A stretch of 32,500 bases of DNA from Aneurinibacillus soli (lineage in GTDB: Bacteria; Bacillota; Bacilli; Aneurinibacillales; Aneurinibacillaceae): NCBI RefSeq assembly GCF_002355375.1, contig NZ_AP017312.1:27501-60000 (forward strand), read 5' to 3'. The translations under genes were made by a program, and so were the position numbers. Below, piece after piece: positions 8,534 to 29,377 of the stretch (position 1 is its first letter; each line of letters starts with the position of its first letter). Under the pieces are notes generated by a model, which was not told where the DNA came from, searched no databases, and saw only the letters and a program-made list of their open reading frames with translations.

Positions 8534-9321
8534 GTCGCTGATACCTCCCCACCAAGCACTTTGCCTGATTCGATTGAGTCCGTCATATATTTCTCCATGT
8601 CCGCAATCAAAGTCTCATCACCGTCAAGCATGCGAAGCGCAACCCATCGCGGCTTCATCCAGCCTGCAAGAAGCGGCTCAAGACGAGGAGTCAGCTCTTC
8701 AATCACCCTCTCGATTTCTTCACGATACCGGGGTACGATCGGTGCCGGCTGTATACGACTGTCGGCGACTGCCGCAAGCTTATCACACAACTCGCCAAGA
8801 CCCTGCTTGCGTCTAGCAGCCGTCGCCACAACCGGAATACCAAGTCGTTCCGCCAATCCTTCCAGATCGACCACAATCCCTTTGCGCTCCGCTTCATCTA
8901 TTAAGTTTACACATAGCACCACATGATCCGTAATCTCCATAACTTGCAGGGCCAGATTCAAGTTACGCTCCAGTGCCGTAGCATCCACCACTACGATTGT
9001 CACATCCGGGCGACCAAAACAAATAAAATCGCGGGCTACCTGTTCATCTACCGAATTGGGCAACAAGGAATATGTTCCCGGCAGATCAACCAGCAAATAT
9101 GACTCACCTTTATGCACAAACGTTCCTTGTGCATTTCCCACCGTCTTGCCCGGCCAGTTCCCGGTATGTTGGTTCAGACCAGTAAGGGCATTGAAAACGG
9201 TACTTTTCCCTGTATTCGGATTACCAGCCAGCGCGATAATTTTCTGATCCGGGGTATCCGTATGAATATCAAACTTGCGACCGATCCATTGATTGCGCAT
9301 CTCTCGTGATTTCGGATTCAT
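8518..9321 (-). CDS. feoB: Ferrous iron transporter FeoB, GTPase half (split FeoB)
   Basis: Cytoplasmic GTPase half of FeoB, 267 aa. G1 is GNPNTGKST (33-41), G3 DLPG (79-82) and G4 NLID (139-142), followed by the GDI-like helical region to about 255. The frame stops at TAG after VSATWPQA without any membrane helix, and the membrane domain continues as the next gene. I chose the ATG at 9321, which overlaps the feoA stop by one base (TGATG) and has GGAGG upstream; the open frame runs further upstream only as the antisense-free shadow of feoA. Middle gene of feoA-feoB(N)-feoB(C). Confidence 0.88.
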   Translation of the reverse strand: MNPKSREMRNQWIGRKFDIHTDTPDQKIIALAGNPNTGKSTVFNALTGLNQHTGNWPGKTVGNAQGTFVHKGESYLLVDLPGTYSLLPNSVDEQVARDFICFGRPDVTIVVVDATALERNLNLALQVMEITDHVVLCVNLIDEAERKGIVVDLEGLAERLGIPVVATAARRKQGLGELCDKLAAVADSRIQPAPIVPRYREEIERVIEELTPRLEPLLAGWMKPRWVALRMLDGDETLIADMEKYMTDSIESGKVLGGEVSATWPQA

Positions 9322-9581
9322 CAGGCATCCTCCTTCAATGGTTCCACCAGAATACCCTTTGCGTCTTCTTTGCGCAGTCCGATTGTTGTTCCCCGTACTC
9401 GGTAAGCGGTTGGGTCTCCGATCGGACTGTGTCGGATGGTCTCTATCATTGTATTCGGTACAACGCCAAGATCCAGCAGGCGCCGACGCACAGTCCCCTC
9501 TACTGTCAGCTCTCTCACTTTGCCACGACAACCTGGGGCCAGTTCTGACAGTGAGATTAGTCGATCTGTTTGCTCTGTCAT
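9321..9581 (-). CDS. feoA: FeoA, SH3-like iron transport accessory protein
   Basis: Small cytoplasmic FeoA-domain protein of 86 aa, normal family length. It shows the typical pattern SLSELAPGCRGKVRELTVEGTVRRRLLDLGVVPNT followed by a G-rich strand (YRVRGTTIGLRKEDA). It is thought to bind and regulate FeoB. It has AGGAGGG eight to nine bases before its ATG and is translationally coupled to the FeoB GTPase gene. First gene of the feo operon. Confidence 0.92.
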   Translation of the reverse strand: MTEQTDRLISLSELAPGCRGKVRELTVEGTVRRRLLDLGVVPNTMIETIRHSPIGDPTAYRVRGTTIGLRKEDAKGILVEPLKEDA

Positions 9582-9682
9582 GATGACGTCCCTCCTGTAT
9601 ACGATCCATCTTTCTATAACGCAACTTTTTTGACCAAAGACAACTTATAGGATAAAAAAATACTTTCACGCTTTCTGTTTCT

Positions 9683-23483: not shown

Positions 23484-24290
23484 TTACGCAGCTTTGCTTT
23501 TTTGTTTTGAATCTGTCAACGATTCTTCACGCAGAAAGGCAAACCAATAGGCGGCTGCGATAAACAACGCACCTCCAACTGCGTTACCCAGAAAAACAGA
23601 AACGAAGTTTGGAAAGTATTGCATCCACGTAACTTTACCGGCAAAAATAGCGGCTGGAATCACGAACATATTCGCTACAACGTGCTGAAACCCGATTGTA
23701 ACGAATGCCATAACAGGAAACCAGATGCCGAGAATTTTGCCTGCAATATCATCAGATGCAAATGCGAACCACACGCCTAAACAGACAAGCCAATTACACC
23801 CGATGCCAGAGATAAATGCTTGCAGGAACGAATCATTCAACTTAGCGTGTGCAATCGCCGTAGTCTTCGCCAGGAATGCACCTGTTTCTGTCAAACCAAC
23901 TACGTGTCCGAAGAAAAACGCCACAAAGATCGCGCCCAGAAAGTTCGCCACCGTAATCCAGAACCAATTGCGTACTACTTGTGACAGCGTTATACGGCGG
24001 GCCATATACGCAATCGGTAGCGTTGCCATATTGCCTGTAAGCAAGTCCCCCCCTGCAATAATGACAAACATAAGACCGATTGGAAATACTGCACCGCCAA
24101 GGAACGAGCTAAAGCTTCCCCATTCTTTTGGCAGATTGCCGATTGTTCGAATATCAAGTAGGAATCCAAGCGCGATAAACGCGCCTGCCAGGAATCCTAA
24201 CACAAGCATAGTAGGTACAGACGTTGTTGCTTTTTTTACGCCGACCTCAACTGCATTTTTTGCAATTTGTTGTGGTGAATGAAATGCCAC
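23484..24290 (-). CDS. Formate/nitrite transporter (FNT) family channel
   Basis: FNT-family membrane protein of 268 aa with six helices, probably a formate channel. Seen: LGFLAGAFIALGF in the first helix region, GGDLLTGNM (conserved FNT loop), NWLVCLGVWFAFASDDIAGK and GFQHVVANMF. The C terminus is basic. The start is GTG at 24290 with AAGGGGGAG upstream. It is the last gene of the operon with the formate dehydrogenase and DUF1641 genes, as yrhG is next to yrhE in B. subtilis, so formate is the likely substrate; nitrite is less likely because no nitrite reductase is present. Confidence 0.88.
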   Translation of the reverse strand: MAFHSPQQIAKNAVEVGVKKATTSVPTMLVLGFLAGAFIALGFLLDIRTIGNLPKEWGSFSSFLGGAVFPIGLMFVIIAGGDLLTGNMATLPIAYMARRITLSQVVRNWFWITVANFLGAIFVAFFFGHVVGLTETGAFLAKTTAIAHAKLNDSFLQAFISGIGCNWLVCLGVWFAFASDDIAGKILGIWFPVMAFVTIGFQHVVANMFVIPAAIFAGKVTWMQYFPNFVSVFLGNAVGGALFIAAAYWFAFLREESLTDSKQKSKAA

Positions 24291-24332: not shown

Positions 24333-24806
24333 TTACAGCTTCTCACCGAGCCCTTTTAGAAAACCGACTGCCATCGTAAGCGCACGATTTGCGTTCGGGT
24401 CGCGGAGAACTTTGATCAGATCAAACATCCCCATCTTCTGATTGGATGCAAGCGCCTCGTTAGAGCGATCAATGCCGTTTACCACACCGGATACAACCTT
24501 GCGAATCATTTCTGGCTCTAACTCTCCCATCATGCCGATTGCACTCATCACGTTGTTGATACCACGCGTCATGGTTGGCTTAGACAATTGAGAAACCCCG
24601 ATTTCCATCACCTTTTCACGTGATTGGATCAGCCCGCCGATGATTTCCATCGCGCCCATCTCATGCAGCAGTTCCACGACCTTCAGCAAGTCTTTAATTG
24701 CCTCGCCGTGCTTGGCGACAACACTGAGCAATTCACCCAGCGCCTGTGCCTGTAGTTCTGCTTCCGTCGGTTCGTGACGGGTTACGTCTTGAATTGGCTT
24801 TGCCAT
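24333..24806 (-). CDS. DUF1641 protein, formate dehydrogenase-associated
   Basis: Soluble helical protein of 157 aa, DUF1641 family by its pattern (ALGELLSVVAKHGEAIKDLLKVVELLHEMGAMEIIGGLI). B. subtilis places such a gene (yrhD) beside the formate dehydrogenase gene. Its role is not established; a small accessory or electron-transfer partner of the dehydrogenase is plausible, but no Cys or redox motif is present. Its ATG directly follows the dehydrogenase stop (TAAATG), using the GGAGGG inside the end of that gene, so the two are coupled in translation. Confidence 0.85.
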   Translation of the reverse strand: MAKPIQDVTRHEPTEAELQAQALGELLSVVAKHGEAIKDLLKVVELLHEMGAMEIIGGLIQSREKVMEIGVSQLSKPTMTRGINNVMSAIGMMGELEPEMIRKVVSGVVNGIDRSNEALASNQKMGMFDLIKVLRDPNANRALTMAVGFLKGLGEKL

Positions 24807-27761
24807 TTACTTTCCCTCCCGGCCAACTGTTTCCAGCGGCTTGTAATCGGCACGGCTCCATTTACGTTCAACTTCAACGCCCGTCTGCGGATTTCGATTA
24901 CCATAGCGAGAGTTAATACGTGGCAGCGGAGTGTCACCTTCTACGTTTAACACCTGCATTTTAACCTTTGCTTCTTTATAGGCAGGCGTATGTGTCGTCA
25001 GGTCATGATGATTCCCTGTCAGTAGATTAACAGCCGAATCCTCTTTTGTTGAATTCATTGGCACGTACAACTCTTTTCCACGTACACGATCTGTTACAAG
25101 AACGCGCAGCTTCACAGCACCGTACGGCGATTCGAGACGGACAAGAGAACCATCTTTCACACCGCGTTCTTTCGCCAATTCTGGTGAAATTTCAACGAAT
25201 GTGTCAGGAACTTTGTGATTGATCCCATCAGACTTACCCGTCATATTTCCTTCGTGGAAGTGCTCAAGCAGACGTCCATTATTCACAAGCAGATCGAATT
25301 CACTCGGCAATTCAACCGGCGGAATCCAGTCGGTCGGGAAGAGGCGTGCCTTGCCATCTGGGAACGGGAACTTCTCCAAATATAAAATAGGTGTATCAGT
25401 TCCATCAGCCTGAACCGGCCAGAGCAAACTTTTGAATCCTTCCAGACGCTCGTAGTTCACACCTGCGAACAGCGGGGCAAGACTTGCCGCTTCAGCCATG
25501 ATTTCACCCGGATTGTTGTACTGCCAGTCTGCCCCCATCGCATTTGCCGCCTCAGTGAGAATCACCCAGTCCGGACGAGTGCCCTTGAGCGGTTCAAGCA
25601 CCTGATACAAACGTTGAATACGACGTTCTGTATTGGTGAAAGTTCCTTCCTTTTCAAGGCTTGGACTTGCTGGCAGGATCACATCCGCGAATTGAGCGGT
25701 CTTGGTTAGGAAAATATCCTGAACAACCAGGAATTCCAGCTTCTCAAGTGCTGCATGAATATAGTTCGCATTGGCATCCACCCATGCCATTTCCTCGCCC
25801 ATGATATACATCGCTTTTAAACGACCCTCATGAATCGCTTCAATCATGGCCGGGTTATCCATCCCCTTCTCAGCTGGAAGAGTTACACCCCATGCCTGCT
25901 CGTAACGAGCGCGAACAGTATCGTCTGTCACAAGCTCATAGCCTGGGAAGAAATTCGGCAGCGTACCGAAGTCACATGCTCCTTGTACGTTGTTATGTCC
26001 ACGAAGTGGGAACGCCCCTGCATTCGGTCGGGCGAAGTTGCCCGTTACCAGCAACAGGTTGCTGATTGCGGTACTCGTCTCACTGGCGCCACAGTGCTGG
26101 GTAACGCCCATGGCCCAGAAAATTGCGGTGCCATCTGCTTCATGAATCATGGTTGCCGTCTGAATCAACTGCTCTTTCGAGAGACCCGTTACTTTTTCCG
26201 CATACTCCAGCGTGTATTTTTCAAGTGATTTCGCATAATCGGCAAAACCATTTACTTTCTCATGCAGGAACGCCACATCATGCCAACCTTTGTCGATGAT
26301 GTATTTGGTTACAGAAGACAGCCATACATGGTCAGTCCCCGAATTTGTGCGAAGAAACAGATCCGAGCGCTCTGCCATTTCATTTTTACGAAGATCCGCA
26401 ACAATCAACTTCTGTGTGCCTTTCTTCTGTGCACGCTTGAGACGTGTTGCGATAACCGGGTGCGCTTCTGCCGGATTTGCCCCAACGATAATGCCGAGAC
26501 CTGCACCTGCCATGTCGTAGATGGAACCTGCGTCACCACCATAGCCAACTGTGCGGAACAACCCTGTTGTCGCCGGGGACTGGCAGTAGCGTGAGCAGTT
26601 ATCTACGTTATTCGTCCCCCCAACGGAACGCGCCAGTTTTTGCATCAAATAGTTCTCTTCATTCGTACATTTAGAAGAGGAGATAAATCCAAGCGCATCG
26701 GCACCATCACGGTTTTTAATTCCCAGCATTTTGCTTGCTATCAAGGCATATGCTTCTTCCCATGTGGCCTCAACAAACGTATCGCCTTTACGAATGAGCG
26801 GCTTGGTCAAGCGGTCTTCACTGTTCACGAAGTCCCAGCCGAATTTACCTTTTACGCACGTAGAGATGCCGTTAACCGGGGAATCCGGAGTCGGTTGAAC
26901 CTTGAGAATCTTGCGCCCTTTGGTCCAGACTTCAAACGTACAGCCTACGCCGCAGAACGTACAGACCGTCTTCGTCTTCTTCGTACGTGTGCTACGGATA
27001 GTCGCTTCGAGATCGGATACCGCAAGAATCCCGCTGTAGCCCGGCTCTACTTCTTTTACAAGCTCAATCATCGGAGCCATCAGTTCCGGCTTTAAGTTCG
27101 TCATGATACCGGCTTCGCCAAGCATCGATTTTTCCATCAGAGCATTACATGGGCATACGTTCACACAGTGCCCACAGGAAACACACGAAGATTCATTAAT
27201 ATTCACATCGTTATCCCAGATTACACGCGGACGATCGAGTTCCCAGTTAATCGAGAGCGTCTCGTTAACCTGCACGTTCTGACACGCCTCCACACACTGG
27301 CCGCACAAAATACATTGTGTCGGATCATACCGATAGAATGGGTGCGACATATCAACTTCATACGGTTTTGGGCTGAACGGATACGATTGATGTTCAATGC
27401 CCATCATTTCCACCGTGTTGTGGATACGGCAGTCGCCGTTGTTATTATCACAAACTGTACAGTAAAGTAGGTGATTTTCCAGGATGCGATCCATTGCCTC
27501 TGTTTGCGCTGCTTTTGCCGAAAGAGACTTTGTTTCGACTACCATGCCTGACTGCGCTTTTGTCGCACATGAACGTACCAACTGCCCATTTACTTCAACC
27601 ATACAGGTATCGCATGTTTGAATTGTACCGAGATTCTGATGATAGCAGATGTGCGGAATCTCAATGCCGTTCTCTTTGATCACATCCACCAAGTTCTGGT
27701 CGGTACTCGCTTCGTAACTTTTGCCGTTAATCGAAAGCGACACAGGTGTCTTCGTCTCCAT
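24807..27761 (-). CDS. Formate dehydrogenase, alpha subunit with N-terminal Fe-S domains (YrhE-like)
   Basis: Cytoplasmic molybdopterin enzyme of 984 aa that oxidises formate to CO2. N-terminal 2Fe-2S domain with C39, C50, C53, C65; His-Cys3 motif H97, C101, C104, C111; two 4Fe-4S sets C150/153/156/160 and C193/196/199/203; then the Mo domain with its 4Fe-4S cluster (C267, C270, C274, C302) and molybdopterin-binding domains to the end. The catalytic residue is C393, coded by TGC and not a selenocysteine UGA. It is followed by Q394 where E. coli FDH-H has His. ATG at 27761 follows GGGGGAGG; the 13 upstream residues lack support. First gene of the fdh-DUF1641-FNT operon, with a long structured leader. 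Confidence 0.92.
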   Translation of the reverse strand: METKTPVSLSINGKSYEASTDQNLVDVIKENGIEIPHICYHQNLGTIQTCDTCMVEVNGQLVRSCATKAQSGMVVETKSLSAKAAQTEAMDRILENHLLYCTVCDNNNGDCRIHNTVEMMGIEHQSYPFSPKPYEVDMSHPFYRYDPTQCILCGQCVEACQNVQVNETLSINWELDRPRVIWDNDVNINESSCVSCGHCVNVCPCNALMEKSMLGEAGIMTNLKPELMAPMIELVKEVEPGYSGILAVSDLEATIRSTRTKKTKTVCTFCGVGCTFEVWTKGRKILKVQPTPDSPVNGISTCVKGKFGWDFVNSEDRLTKPLIRKGDTFVEATWEEAYALIASKMLGIKNRDGADALGFISSSKCTNEENYLMQKLARSVGGTNNVDNCSRYCQSPATTGLFRTVGYGGDAGSIYDMAGAGLGIIVGANPAEAHPVIATRLKRAQKKGTQKLIVADLRKNEMAERSDLFLRTNSGTDHVWLSSVTKYIIDKGWHDVAFLHEKVNGFADYAKSLEKYTLEYAEKVTGLSKEQLIQTATMIHEADGTAIFWAMGVTQHCGASETSTAISNLLLVTGNFARPNAGAFPLRGHNNVQGACDFGTLPNFFPGYELVTDDTVRARYEQAWGVTLPAEKGMDNPAMIEAIHEGRLKAMYIMGEEMAWVDANANYIHAALEKLEFLVVQDIFLTKTAQFADVILPASPSLEKEGTFTNTERRIQRLYQVLEPLKGTRPDWVILTEAANAMGADWQYNNPGEIMAEAASLAPLFAGVNYERLEGFKSLLWPVQADGTDTPILYLEKFPFPDGKARLFPTDWIPPVELPSEFDLLVNNGRLLEHFHEGNMTGKSDGINHKVPDTFVEISPELAKERGVKDGSLVRLESPYGAVKLRVLVTDRVRGKELYVPMNSTKEDSAVNLLTGNHHDLTTHTPAYKEAKVKMQVLNVEGDTPLPRINSRYGNRNPQTGVEVERKWSRADYKPLETVGREGK

Positions 27762-27805
27762 ACTTCCTCCCCCAATTTCTTCATTTTCATGTACCGGCAC
27801 ACAAT

Positions 27806-27876
27806 AAAAAATCCACCATGAAACAACCGCCTGAGACTTTACCCGTTCTCAGGTCAATACGTTGTTTCATGGTGGA
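27806..27876 (-). terminator. Terminator-like hairpin in the fdh leader (attenuator candidate)
   Basis: A perfect 16-bp stem (27812-27827 with 27861-27876) encloses a second stem CCTGAGA/TCTCAGG (27830-27836, 27847-27853). On the minus strand it is followed by TTTTTTATTG, the shape of an intrinsic terminator. It stands only about 45-50 bases before the fdh start codon, with no room for a promoter in between, so fdh transcripts must read through it. It could instead serve mainly as terminator of the upstream DUF2294 gene. Confidence 0.7.
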
Positions 27877-27884
27877 ATCGTCGT

Positions 27885-27904
27885 CAGCACTTACGTAAGT
27901 ACTG
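27885..27904. promoter_or_regulatory. 20-bp near-perfect palindrome
   Basis: A palindrome with a 12-bp perfect core ACTTACGTAAGT, broken at one pair only, lies just upstream of the hairpin in the fdh leader. It could be an operator for a dimeric regulator or an extra RNA hairpin. Confidence 0.45.
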
Positions 27905-28048
27905 TCATATACCAGTCCGCCATATATCAGTTAACGGTTACAATAACAAGAAACCAATAGAATACGATTACCGTAATCAATTCGCAACTTATCATTATAC
28001 CCCTATCAAATTACGATGAACAAAACGTCATACTCAAATCCATTTAAC

Positions 28049-28077
28049 ATTATAGTAACAAATTCTTCACATGTCTA
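28049..28077 (-). promoter_or_regulatory. Sigma-A promoter of the fdh operon
   Basis: TAGACA (28072-28077), 17-bp spacer, TATAAT (28049-28054) on the minus strand. The -35 lies inside the last codons of the DUF2294 gene. Confidence 0.65.
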
Positions 28078-28429
28078 GCTCTAATGGTCTATCAAAGACA
28101 AAAACTGTCATGGCTGTATCCATTTCATAACGGAAATCTACAAAAAGCGTGACCATTTTAGCATTCACAAGTTCTTCTAGCGGTCGCCCCACTGATAAAT
28201 CTTCATAAATCTTTTTAATGAATTCAGTTCGAGTTTCATGAATCATCCGTTTGCCTTCTTCTGTCCGGCTCATAAATTTCTCAACGCTTGTAAGGTTTCC
28301 CTTCATTTCACAAATCGCCCACGGTCCGGCAAATCGGGTAACAATGTGAGTAGGGCCCTTTCCAACATGTGTTTTACGAATTTCACGGACAAGATTACTG
28401 AATTCATGAGCAATACGGGCAGTACTCAT
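28067..28429 (-). CDS. DUF2294 (MpsC-like) small protein
   Basis: Soluble protein of 120 aa, recognised as DUF2294 by FSNLVREIRKTHVGKGPTHI, a CEMKGNLTSVEKFM middle and a VTLFVDFRYEMDTAMTVFVF end. The biochemical role is not settled. B. subtilis has a similar small gene (yrhF) beside its formate dehydrogenase genes, so the association is conserved. It is upstream of and on the same strand as fdh, and divergent from fdhD. The ATG at 28429 follows a GGGAAGGTGAAG stretch. Confidence 0.75.
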   Translation of the reverse strand: MSTARIAHEFSNLVREIRKTHVGKGPTHIVTRFAGPWAICEMKGNLTSVEKFMSRTEEGKRMIHETRTEFIKKIYEDLSVGRPLEELVNAKMVTLFVDFRYEMDTAMTVFVFDRPLELDM

Positions 28430-28517
28430 TGTTCTTCACCTTCCCTGCTGCATATCCTGCTCATCTAGAATTGCATGTTTCTGCTTACAATGCAAGAGAA
28501 GGGTACAAAAAATTCTT

Positions 28518-28545
28518 TTGACTTTCTTCCATCACGAACTACAAT
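28518..28545 (+). promoter_or_regulatory. Sigma-A promoter of fdhD
   Basis: TTGACT (28518-28523), 16-bp spacer, TACAAT (28540-28545), about 30 bases before the fdhD start. Confidence 0.7.
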
Positions 28546-28576
28546 AAAACAAGAAAGAAAGGTGGTCTTGTTCAGC

Positions 28577-29377
28577 ATGGTTCATCCTGTAGCTCACTCT
28601 CGCACCGTCTGGCACTATGAAAACAACGAATGGACGGAACGCACAGATGAAGTAGTAAATGAATTCCCTGTTACAATTTTTCTCGATGAAGAAGAGTTTG
28701 CAACTGTCGTATGCACACCTGAATACATCGAAGATCTCGTAGTCGGATTTCTGGCATCAGAAGGAGTTATCCGTTCCTTTGATGACATCAAAACCATCAC
28801 AATCCAGGAAGAAGAAGGATTCGCCCATGTAGAAACCCATGCACGACATAAGCTGAATCAACGTCTGTATTCCAAGCGCTATATTACTTCATGCTGTGGA
28901 AAAAGTCGCCAGCATTTTTATTTTTACAATGATGCCCGTACGGCCAAAGTCATGACTGAAAAAAACGTCCTTCTTACCCCTGAAGATTGCTCTCACCTGA
29001 TTGCGGCTATGCAGGAAAACTCTGTTGTATTCCGAAATACAGGTGGTGTTCATAATGCAGCGTTGTGCGATAAAAAGGGCATTTTGATTGACCGCATGGA
29101 TATCGGCCGTCATAATGCGCTCGACAAAATCTACGGCTACTGCCTGCAACATAATATCTCTCTACACGATAAAGTAATTGCATTCAGCGGACGCATCTCT
29201 TCGGAAGTGCTGCTCAAAGTGGCCAAAATCGGCTGTGAAGTAGTTCTATCCAAATCAGCACCCACCCGCTTAGCCCTTGAACTTGCCGAAGAACTCGGCA
29301 TTACGGCTGTCGGCTTTATTCGCGGCAGTTCGCTAAACGTGTACACCCACCCGGAACGTATTGTTATACAAAAATAA
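28577..29377 (+). CDS. fdhD: FdhD, sulfurtransferase for formate dehydrogenase
   Basis: FdhD-family protein of 266 aa. It passes sulfur to the Mo-bis-MGD cofactor of formate dehydrogenase and is needed for its activity. Seen: CTPEYIEDLVVGFLASEGVI, the cysteine site YITSCCGKS (C106/C107), FRNTGGVHNAAL, MDIGRHNALDKIYGY and FSGRISSEVLLKVAKIGCEVVLSKSAPT. The Cys pair is adjacent rather than the C-x-x-C known from E. coli. I chose the ATG at 28577, after AAAGGTGG; starts further upstream lie before or in the promoter. It is transcribed divergently from DUF2294-fdh. Its 3' end overlaps the convergent AraC gene by 14 bases. Confidence 0.9.
   Translation: MVHPVAHSRTVWHYENNEWTERTDEVVNEFPVTIFLDEEEFATVVCTPEYIEDLVVGFLASEGVIRSFDDIKTITIQEEEGFAHVETHARHKLNQRLYSKRYITSCCGKSRQHFYFYNDARTAKVMTEKNVLLTPEDCSHLIAAMQENSVVFRNTGGVHNAALCDKKGILIDRMDIGRHNALDKIYGYCLQHNISLHDKVIAFSGRISSEVLLKVAKIGCEVVLSKSAPTRLALELAEELGITAVGFIRGSSLNVYTHPERIVIQK

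Follow-up and report, generated by a model that had tools for sequence, protein, structure and literature searches.

A putative transcription attenuator with a conserved, covarying antiterminator element upstream of fdhF in Aneurinibacillus soli, and a DUF2294 protein as its candidate factor

In the BglG, SacY, and LicT systems, the RAT hairpin is stabilized by a trans-acting factor, and ANTAR-regulated leaders carry tandem hairpins, the second of which overlaps the terminator. The Moco RNA motif and other metabolite riboswitches of Rfam exert leader control over genes for molybdoenzymes or the Mo cofactor. The fdhF leader of Aneurinibacillus soli, located in the analyzed 32,500-nucleotide stretch of its genome (the window), shares a feature with each of these systems. 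As with RAT, a short conserved hairpin has its 3′ strand overlapping the 5′ arm of the terminator; however, the RNA consensus is different (relative to the RAT consensus as generally known, without a computed comparison), and CAT_RBD is missing from the window genome. Tandem hairpins also occur at some sites of the element, as in the ANTAR leaders, yet the element has no fixed hexaloop, its loop lengths vary, and ANTAR is likewise missing from the window genome. Regulators of both types were considered and rejected: among 30 hand-picked genomes carrying the motif, ANTAR is absent from 21 and CAT_RBD from 15, in each case including the window genome (G000). Leader control is the likeness to the Moco RNA motif and the Rfam riboswitches; the differences are the lack of an Rfam match and the presence of Mo-free formate dehydrogenases among the targets. 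No covariance model of Rfam 15 matched anywhere in the window at its gathering score, and a search at relaxed E-values returned MIR7723, snoZ182, and TeloSII_ncR30 alone, all far below gathering and none credible. This agrees with the preliminary description of the locus, in which no known riboswitch class was found to fit. The element family is absent from Rfam and apparently undescribed.

The gene fdhF (24807–27761, minus strand, ATG at 27761) encodes the catalytic subunit of a ForC-type formate dehydrogenase (NCBIfam TIGR01591, above cut-off), whose closest named relatives are from Aneurinibacillus. It is followed by a gene for a DUF1641 protein, the ForE-type partner subunit (24333–24806, minus strand), and, next in the row, by a focA-like formate/nitrite transporter gene (23484–24290, minus strand, PF01226). 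On the other side lie a DUF2294 gene (28067–28429, minus strand; PF10057, MpsC in Pfam, 2.5e-27), whose product is our candidate trans-acting antiterminator, and the divergent fdhD (28475–29377, plus strand, PF02634), which serves formate dehydrogenase maturation. A second fdhF elsewhere in the genome likewise carries the element (G000:C1:2590610-2590661; L198/L101) and has a separate DUF2294 gene nearby (G000:C1:2586318). Counterparts in B. subtilis are treated in PMC8808070; the formate dehydrogenases there are the menaquinone-linked ForCE1 and ForCE2, and according to that article the fdh operons seem to remain silent in anaerobic, fermentative, or formate-inducing conditions.

A sigma-A promoter had been placed in the preliminary description at 28049–28077 (minus strand), where it overlaps the 3′ end of the DUF2294 gene. 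The predicted site, TAGACA-17-TATAAT, scores 11 of 12 in our scan. The scanned stretch contains 16 promoter-like sites, against 13.7 expected by chance, and the scan by itself is therefore weak evidence. The promoter recurs at the same position in all seven distinct Aneurinibacillus-type leaders among the nine compared, with TGGACA as the first hexamer in two. Transcription from the inferred start would yield a leader of about 280 nt (27762–28043, minus strand; aligned with six relatives), whose folding energy is −89.6 kcal/mol, compared with −65.7 ± 4.6 kcal/mol in 200 shuffles (z = −5.16). The intrinsic terminator (27806–27876, minus strand, −35.7 kcal/mol) was confirmed, as previously described. 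Its 16-bp stem is an inverted repeat of 100% complementarity (27812–27827/27861–27876), enclosing a 7-bp inner stem, CCTGAGA/TCTCAGG (27853–27847/27836–27830), and followed by a T6 tract at 27811–27806; the inner stem and the T6 tract can be read directly in the sequence. A simple terminator scan did not return this hairpin because its pattern admits only loops of 3–8.

Closer to the element, another TATAAT (27999–27994, minus strand) is shared by the window with its closest sister and is missing from five other aligned leaders. The Aneurinibacillus leaders also share a conserved GATTGnnGAAAACGCATTCT-like block upstream of the element (about 27950–27995, minus strand), which forms a hairpin in the consensus fold. 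The upstream hairpin in the consensus fold of seven such leaders could not be equated with a tandem copy of the element.

Directly 5′ of the terminator lies an antiterminator hairpin that had previously been overlooked. The element spans 27867–27923 (minus strand). Its outer helix, P1, pairs a GGAUUGG-type sequence with CUAUUCC, with one internal mismatch; in the window it is extended to AUGGCGGA (27916–27923, minus strand) paired with UCCACCAU (27869–27876, minus strand), with one C–A mismatch. The 5′ strand mimics the terminator 3′ arm, AUGGUGGA, and the 3′ strand also forms the first part of the terminator 5′ arm. Because P1 uses this arm, the terminator and the antiterminator are mutually exclusive. 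The upper hairpin, CAGUAC...GUGCUG (27885–27904, minus strand), carries a conserved GUA/UGC with a U–G wobble. At the second fdhF of this genome, the corresponding P1 pair is AUGGCGGG with CCCACCAU. The computed energy of the antiterminator in the window is −18.5 kcal/mol, against −35.7 kcal/mol for the terminator, so that termination should be the default unless the antiterminator is stabilized.

Orthologous fdhF loci were collected through the FdhF protein (80 loci) and from the family genomes, 10 of 11 of which matched. They provided 101 fdhF upstream regions, 93 of them distinct, and 39 with a recognizable element were hand-picked for alignment A1. The first covariance model, R1 (18 sequences), placed its matches exactly on leaders outside its training set (L005, E = 2e-8; L033, 1e-6; L051, 1e-6; L088, 6e-5). 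In L035 it also matched a further, second site (E = 0.04), which precedes a formate/nitrite transporter and at which the terminator arm, AGCAGCAUUAA, is wholly different. On the window element R1 gave merely E = 0.57. Its 86 matches at E up to 10 included many on the reverse strand, either over these same hairpins (best E = 4e-4) or at other places, which were rejected. In R2 (22 rows), 92.1% of the cells are paired, and 11 cells show a double change against 3.4 in shuffles. R2 likewise produced reverse-strand matches, and also weak matches that were judged spurious; one of the latter, in family f27, precedes a gene whose product presumably resembles ribosomal protein S10.

The third model, R3, comprises 35 diverse rows, from which the window sequence was excluded and in which a sister leader of 92% identity was included. 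It matches the window element at 27922–27867 with 29.3 bits (E = 1.2e-3 in the whole genome, 4.4e-5 in a separate search). In its alignment, 93.5% of the cells are paired, against 35–47% for slid structures, and both sides have changed in 36 cells, against 10.5 in shuffles, none of 500 shuffles reaching 36. The P1 wobble G–U is kept in 34 of 35 rows; in the upper stem, U–G is found in 29 of the 33 rows with letters, the remaining four being C–G. Two weaker measures are near chance: pairs with a double change (6 against 3.9 in shuffles, reached in 26 of 500) and further pair types (16 against 13.3, reached in 20 of 500). The covariation counts are somewhat favorable because model-made alignments lean toward the structure of the model. 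The conserved, covarying structure that the preliminary description proposed to look for is thus present. A descriptor written after the motif had been seen gave 33 matches, 22 of them at fdhF leaders; it missed the window and matched four of ten regions tried. One descriptor match away from fdhF is conserved in the B. subtilis group (L063:7738, L026:7768, L046:7767, L048:7724, and L068:7737, on the minus strand, counted from the start of the reverse complement).

The consensus of the element is roughly 5′-UGR-N6/7-GYA-loop-UGY-N6/7-YUA-3′, with two conserved G–U wobbles. The conserved letters at the two stem ends are 5′-UGR-N6/7-GYA on one strand and 5′-UGY-N6/7-YUA on the other, and therefore both strands read alike, with one wobble each. 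The duplex is nearly two-fold symmetric, and its wobbles are about one helical turn apart. The window copy is degenerate, having CGA in place of CUA as well as a 3-nt bulge. Of 85 sites, 53 have a main hairpin that fits the strict symmetric pattern, 43 with spacing 7 and 10 with spacing 6; some genera deviate from it by unequal strands or, like the window, by a bulge. In 26 of the 85 sites there is a tandem arrangement, with a second, upstream hairpin of the same pattern at spacing 7, whereas 5.9% of mononucleotide-shuffled sequences contain such a pattern at any spacing of 5–8. The 85 sites are phylogenetically non-independent.

From 74 R2 sites, the 56 scoring 27 bits or more were retained, six weaker fdhF leaders were added by hand, 12 sites were dropped (among them the decayed fdhF leader of G177), and one duplicate was removed, which left 61 distinct sites. 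A terminator-like hairpin lies within 140 nt behind the element in 60 of these, and in 59 the 5′ arm of that hairpin overlaps with the P1 3′ strand; the models stop short of the 3′ arm. The terminator arms vary in sequence (UCCACCAU, AGCAGCAUUAA, AACCAUCG), and the competition with P1 is retained. Two of the features expected of an attenuator are in place. A leader with an intrinsic terminator ahead of the gene is found in the window and at 60 of 61 sites; mutually exclusive helices, conserved and covarying, are present at 59 of 61. The reading of the fdhF leader as an attenuator, already put forward in the preliminary description, is supported by this conserved antiterminator in competition with the terminator. 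We have little doubt that the leader is a transcription attenuator of this kind, although control of read-through is inferred from sequence comparison and not from experiment.

At E up to 0.003, R3 finds the element in 73 of 398 Bacilli genomes, at 86 sites, including both sites of the window genome. A search of the phylum matched 3 of 209 genomes, all in the same class; the share of the 209 that lies outside this class is not fully shown. Of the 61 distinct R2-derived sites, 52 are within 500 nt of fdhF, six of them being the fdhF leaders added by hand. Among the nine others, four precede genes for PF03458 membrane proteins, two precede moaA (TIGR02666, above cut-off; moeA follows in L207), and one stands before PsiE and a NUBPL-type ATPase. 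Another (L204) is directly followed by a gene for a 162-aa protein (9107–9595) without a Pfam or NCBIfam match, a candidate new formate-related gene, and one has no assigned target. A focA-type formate transporter is also among the targets. The PF03458 "glycine transporter" proteins are found behind the element in G071, G158, G111, and G170 (L201, L202, L206, and L205, respectively); since the element repeatedly precedes these genes, the arrangement suggests that they may transport formate or a related C1 compound. The site at G158:C2:1143829 (L164, L202) has a well-formed tandem element with its terminator, and no formate gene could be identified behind it. Two f48 genomes have an R3 site flanked by a divergent DUF2294 gene on one side and the gene of an unassigned protein on the other. 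By eye, elements are visible in L273 before an FdhF/YdeP-family oxidoreductase (no R3 match) and before an MFS transporter of the NCBIfam L-lactate type (R3 E = 0.13); in L272 the resemblance is only partial. The target in L275/L276 was considered SatP-like, which Pfam and NCBIfam searches did not support, and it remains unassigned. Overall, the element very probably serves a formate regulon.

The nature of the signal is informed by one genus (f11 g16, probably Staphylococcus, as inferred), in which BLASTN with the leader gave matches in 24 of 61 genomes; DUF2294 is present at all 24 loci. The element pattern occurs in 23 of these loci and an NAD-dependent formate dehydrogenase in 17, with both in 16; the identity of the enzyme was established on L269 (NF005750, above cut-off). 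R3 is weak on such sites (L270, E = 0.06; L271, E = 0.44; L269, no match). The NAD-dependent formate dehydrogenase contains no molybdenum and is unrelated to the fdhF enzyme, and for this reason formate, rather than the Mo cofactor, is favored as the common theme. The Mo cofactor or molybdate, which had been suggested among the possible ligands, is unlikely as the only signal, given that the element also precedes this Mo-free enzyme. That formate is the signal is an inference, which we consider rather more probable than the contrary. At the seven other loci (L282–L287 and L290), no NAD-dependent formate dehydrogenase is found in the locus DNA covered and DUF2294 is present; the three that were inspected (L282, L285, L287) have no long ORF behind the element. 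In this genus, the stretch from the element to the terminator 3′ arm contains a sequence resembling a ribosome-binding site, AAGGAGGUG in L270, L271, L282, L285, and L287 and AAGGGGGUG in L269; it is followed by AUG-stop in L282, L285, and L287 and by a 3-codon ORF in L270.

Among the 398 genomes, DUF2294 was found in 163 (E up to 1e-4) and fdhF in 175 (E up to 1e-200). The 175 fdhF genomes divide into 73 with both DUF2294 and the R3 motif, 48 with DUF2294 and no motif, none with the motif and no DUF2294, and 54 with neither (Fisher 6e-17, uncorrected for phylogeny). DUF2294 is thus encoded in all 73 genomes with an R3 match, and R3 found no motif in the 42 DUF2294 genomes lacking fdhF. At least 65 of the 86 motif sites are within 6 kb of a DUF2294 gene, at a median distance of 486 nt among the listed genes. 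In 18 of the 48 motif-negative genomes with DUF2294 and fdhF, an element is visible somewhere by eye: seven at fdhF, one in G167 (an R2 match), one in G299 (before other genes), and nine in genomes of the f11 genus. In 14 of the 48, including G299, no element was seen upstream of the one fdhF copy examined. R2 passes two fdhF genomes lacking DUF2294 (G258, E = 1.8e-4; G177, E = 0.008), where decayed copies precede fdhF. In these two genomes, of one contig each, and in the draft genome of A. thermoaerophilus (L008 = G001), fdhF is present, no DUF2294 was found, the elements are decayed, and the terminator is retained. Expression of fdhF in these three is not explained by our model, since the terminator is kept without DUF2294 or an intact element.

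DUF2294 is a small basic protein with invariant R15, R18, and R67 and near-invariant K19 and K24, and its AlphaFold model has a pLDDT of 94. By sequence, no relative was found among solved structures. A fold search gave nothing above the usual noise (best Z of 7.7 for FtsK and about 5 for AlaX-type editing domains), and families not listed in its output are not excluded. YrhF of B. subtilis is taken to be the DUF2294 protein from its gene position.

The main rival to a protein factor is a small-molecule riboswitch, in which formate or a related metabolite would bind the RNA directly and DUF2294 would be merely a co-regulated gene of formate metabolism. A covarying, conserved RNA ahead of many formate genes would suit such a mechanism, as would the tandem copies of the element (tandem riboswitches are known) and the absence of a visible RNA-binding fold in DUF2294. 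However, conservation falls mostly on paired or wobble positions, and the loops and mid-stem vary in size and sequence, unlike in most aptamers; moreover, the R3 motif occurs in none of the 54 fdhF genomes without DUF2294. We therefore regard direct ligand binding as unlikely. The evidence leans toward a protein as the direct effector, which we consider likely without being decisive. Read-through could also be controlled by a different, unidentified RNA-binding protein that is neither DUF2294 nor of the ANTAR or BglG type. The nearly symmetric duplex with two wobbles resembles a protein site, and no data exist on binding by DUF2294; but of the three families tried, DUF2294 alone occurs throughout the motif genomes (73 of 73), and another protein appears distinctly improbable. 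Finally, although the hairpin sits between DUF2294 and fdhF, the idea that it only terminates the DUF2294 transcript and that fdhF starts further downstream, which the preliminary description had named as the outcome that would refute it, is hardly tenable, because other Bacillales keep the leader and terminator at many loci with DUF2294 divergent from or downstream of fdhF, the terminator arm is subject to competition from the conserved element at 59 of 61 sites, and relatives share the promoter that lies upstream of the hairpin.

We propose attenuation in which the DUF2294 protein stabilizes the antiterminator when formate is present, and we assign this model as a whole a probability of roughly 55%. 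By default, the 5′ arm UCCACCAUGAAAC would pair with the 3′ arm to form the strong terminator, so that most transcripts would end before fdhF. When formate is usable, a trans-acting factor, most likely the DUF2294 protein, would bind the conserved hairpin and stabilize the outer helix. This helix would then sequester the terminator 5′ arm and allow read-through into fdhF-DUF1641-focA. The co-occurrence of DUF2294 with the element, the target genes, and the exclusive, covarying helices are observed; the direction of the effect (activation) and the role of DUF2294 as the binding factor are inferred. DUF2294 as an antitermination protein, for which there are no RNA-binding data, is favored only slightly over its negation. 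Its role as a regulator of formate genes is newly proposed here.

In the literature searched, which left out most subscription papers, we found no formate riboswitch, formate antiterminator, or DUF2294 regulator. The accessible parts of PMC11109978, PMC1590033, and PMC8632094 contain nothing on the fdhF leader. A 200-nt segment near yrhE appears among the RNA-switch candidates of a prediction table from 2015 (PMC4448311, available in part); its overlap with the leader is undetermined. A 189-nt RNA feature near yrhD in B. licheniformis was considered as the leader and rejected, being actually a 3′UTR. YrhF is described in PMC8216469 as a RoxS target of unknown function. In B. subtilis, 15 min of RoxS induction lowered yrhF mRNA to 0.42 and forC2/forE2 to 0.69 (PMC10433868). 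The change in forC2/forE2 is in the expected direction, but it is confounded, as RoxS may act on forC2E2 directly. The Pfam name MpsC derives from the S. aureus mps operon, and deletion of mpsC is reported to have caused no growth phenotype (PMC6689103).

Taken at its widest, the proposal is that DUF2294 represents a new family of formate-responsive RNA-binding antiterminators, which recognize a nearly two-fold-symmetric duplex with two wobbles and control genes for formate oxidation, formate transport, and the Mo cofactor across Bacilli, including two unrelated formate dehydrogenases; we judge the odds for and against this to be even. If true, it would define a new class of regulatory RNA without a match in Rfam 15, possibly usable as a formate-responsive genetic part. 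It would also give a function to the widespread orphan family DUF2294/MpsC/YrhF and explain the switching of formate genes in many Bacilli, including relatives of B. subtilis.
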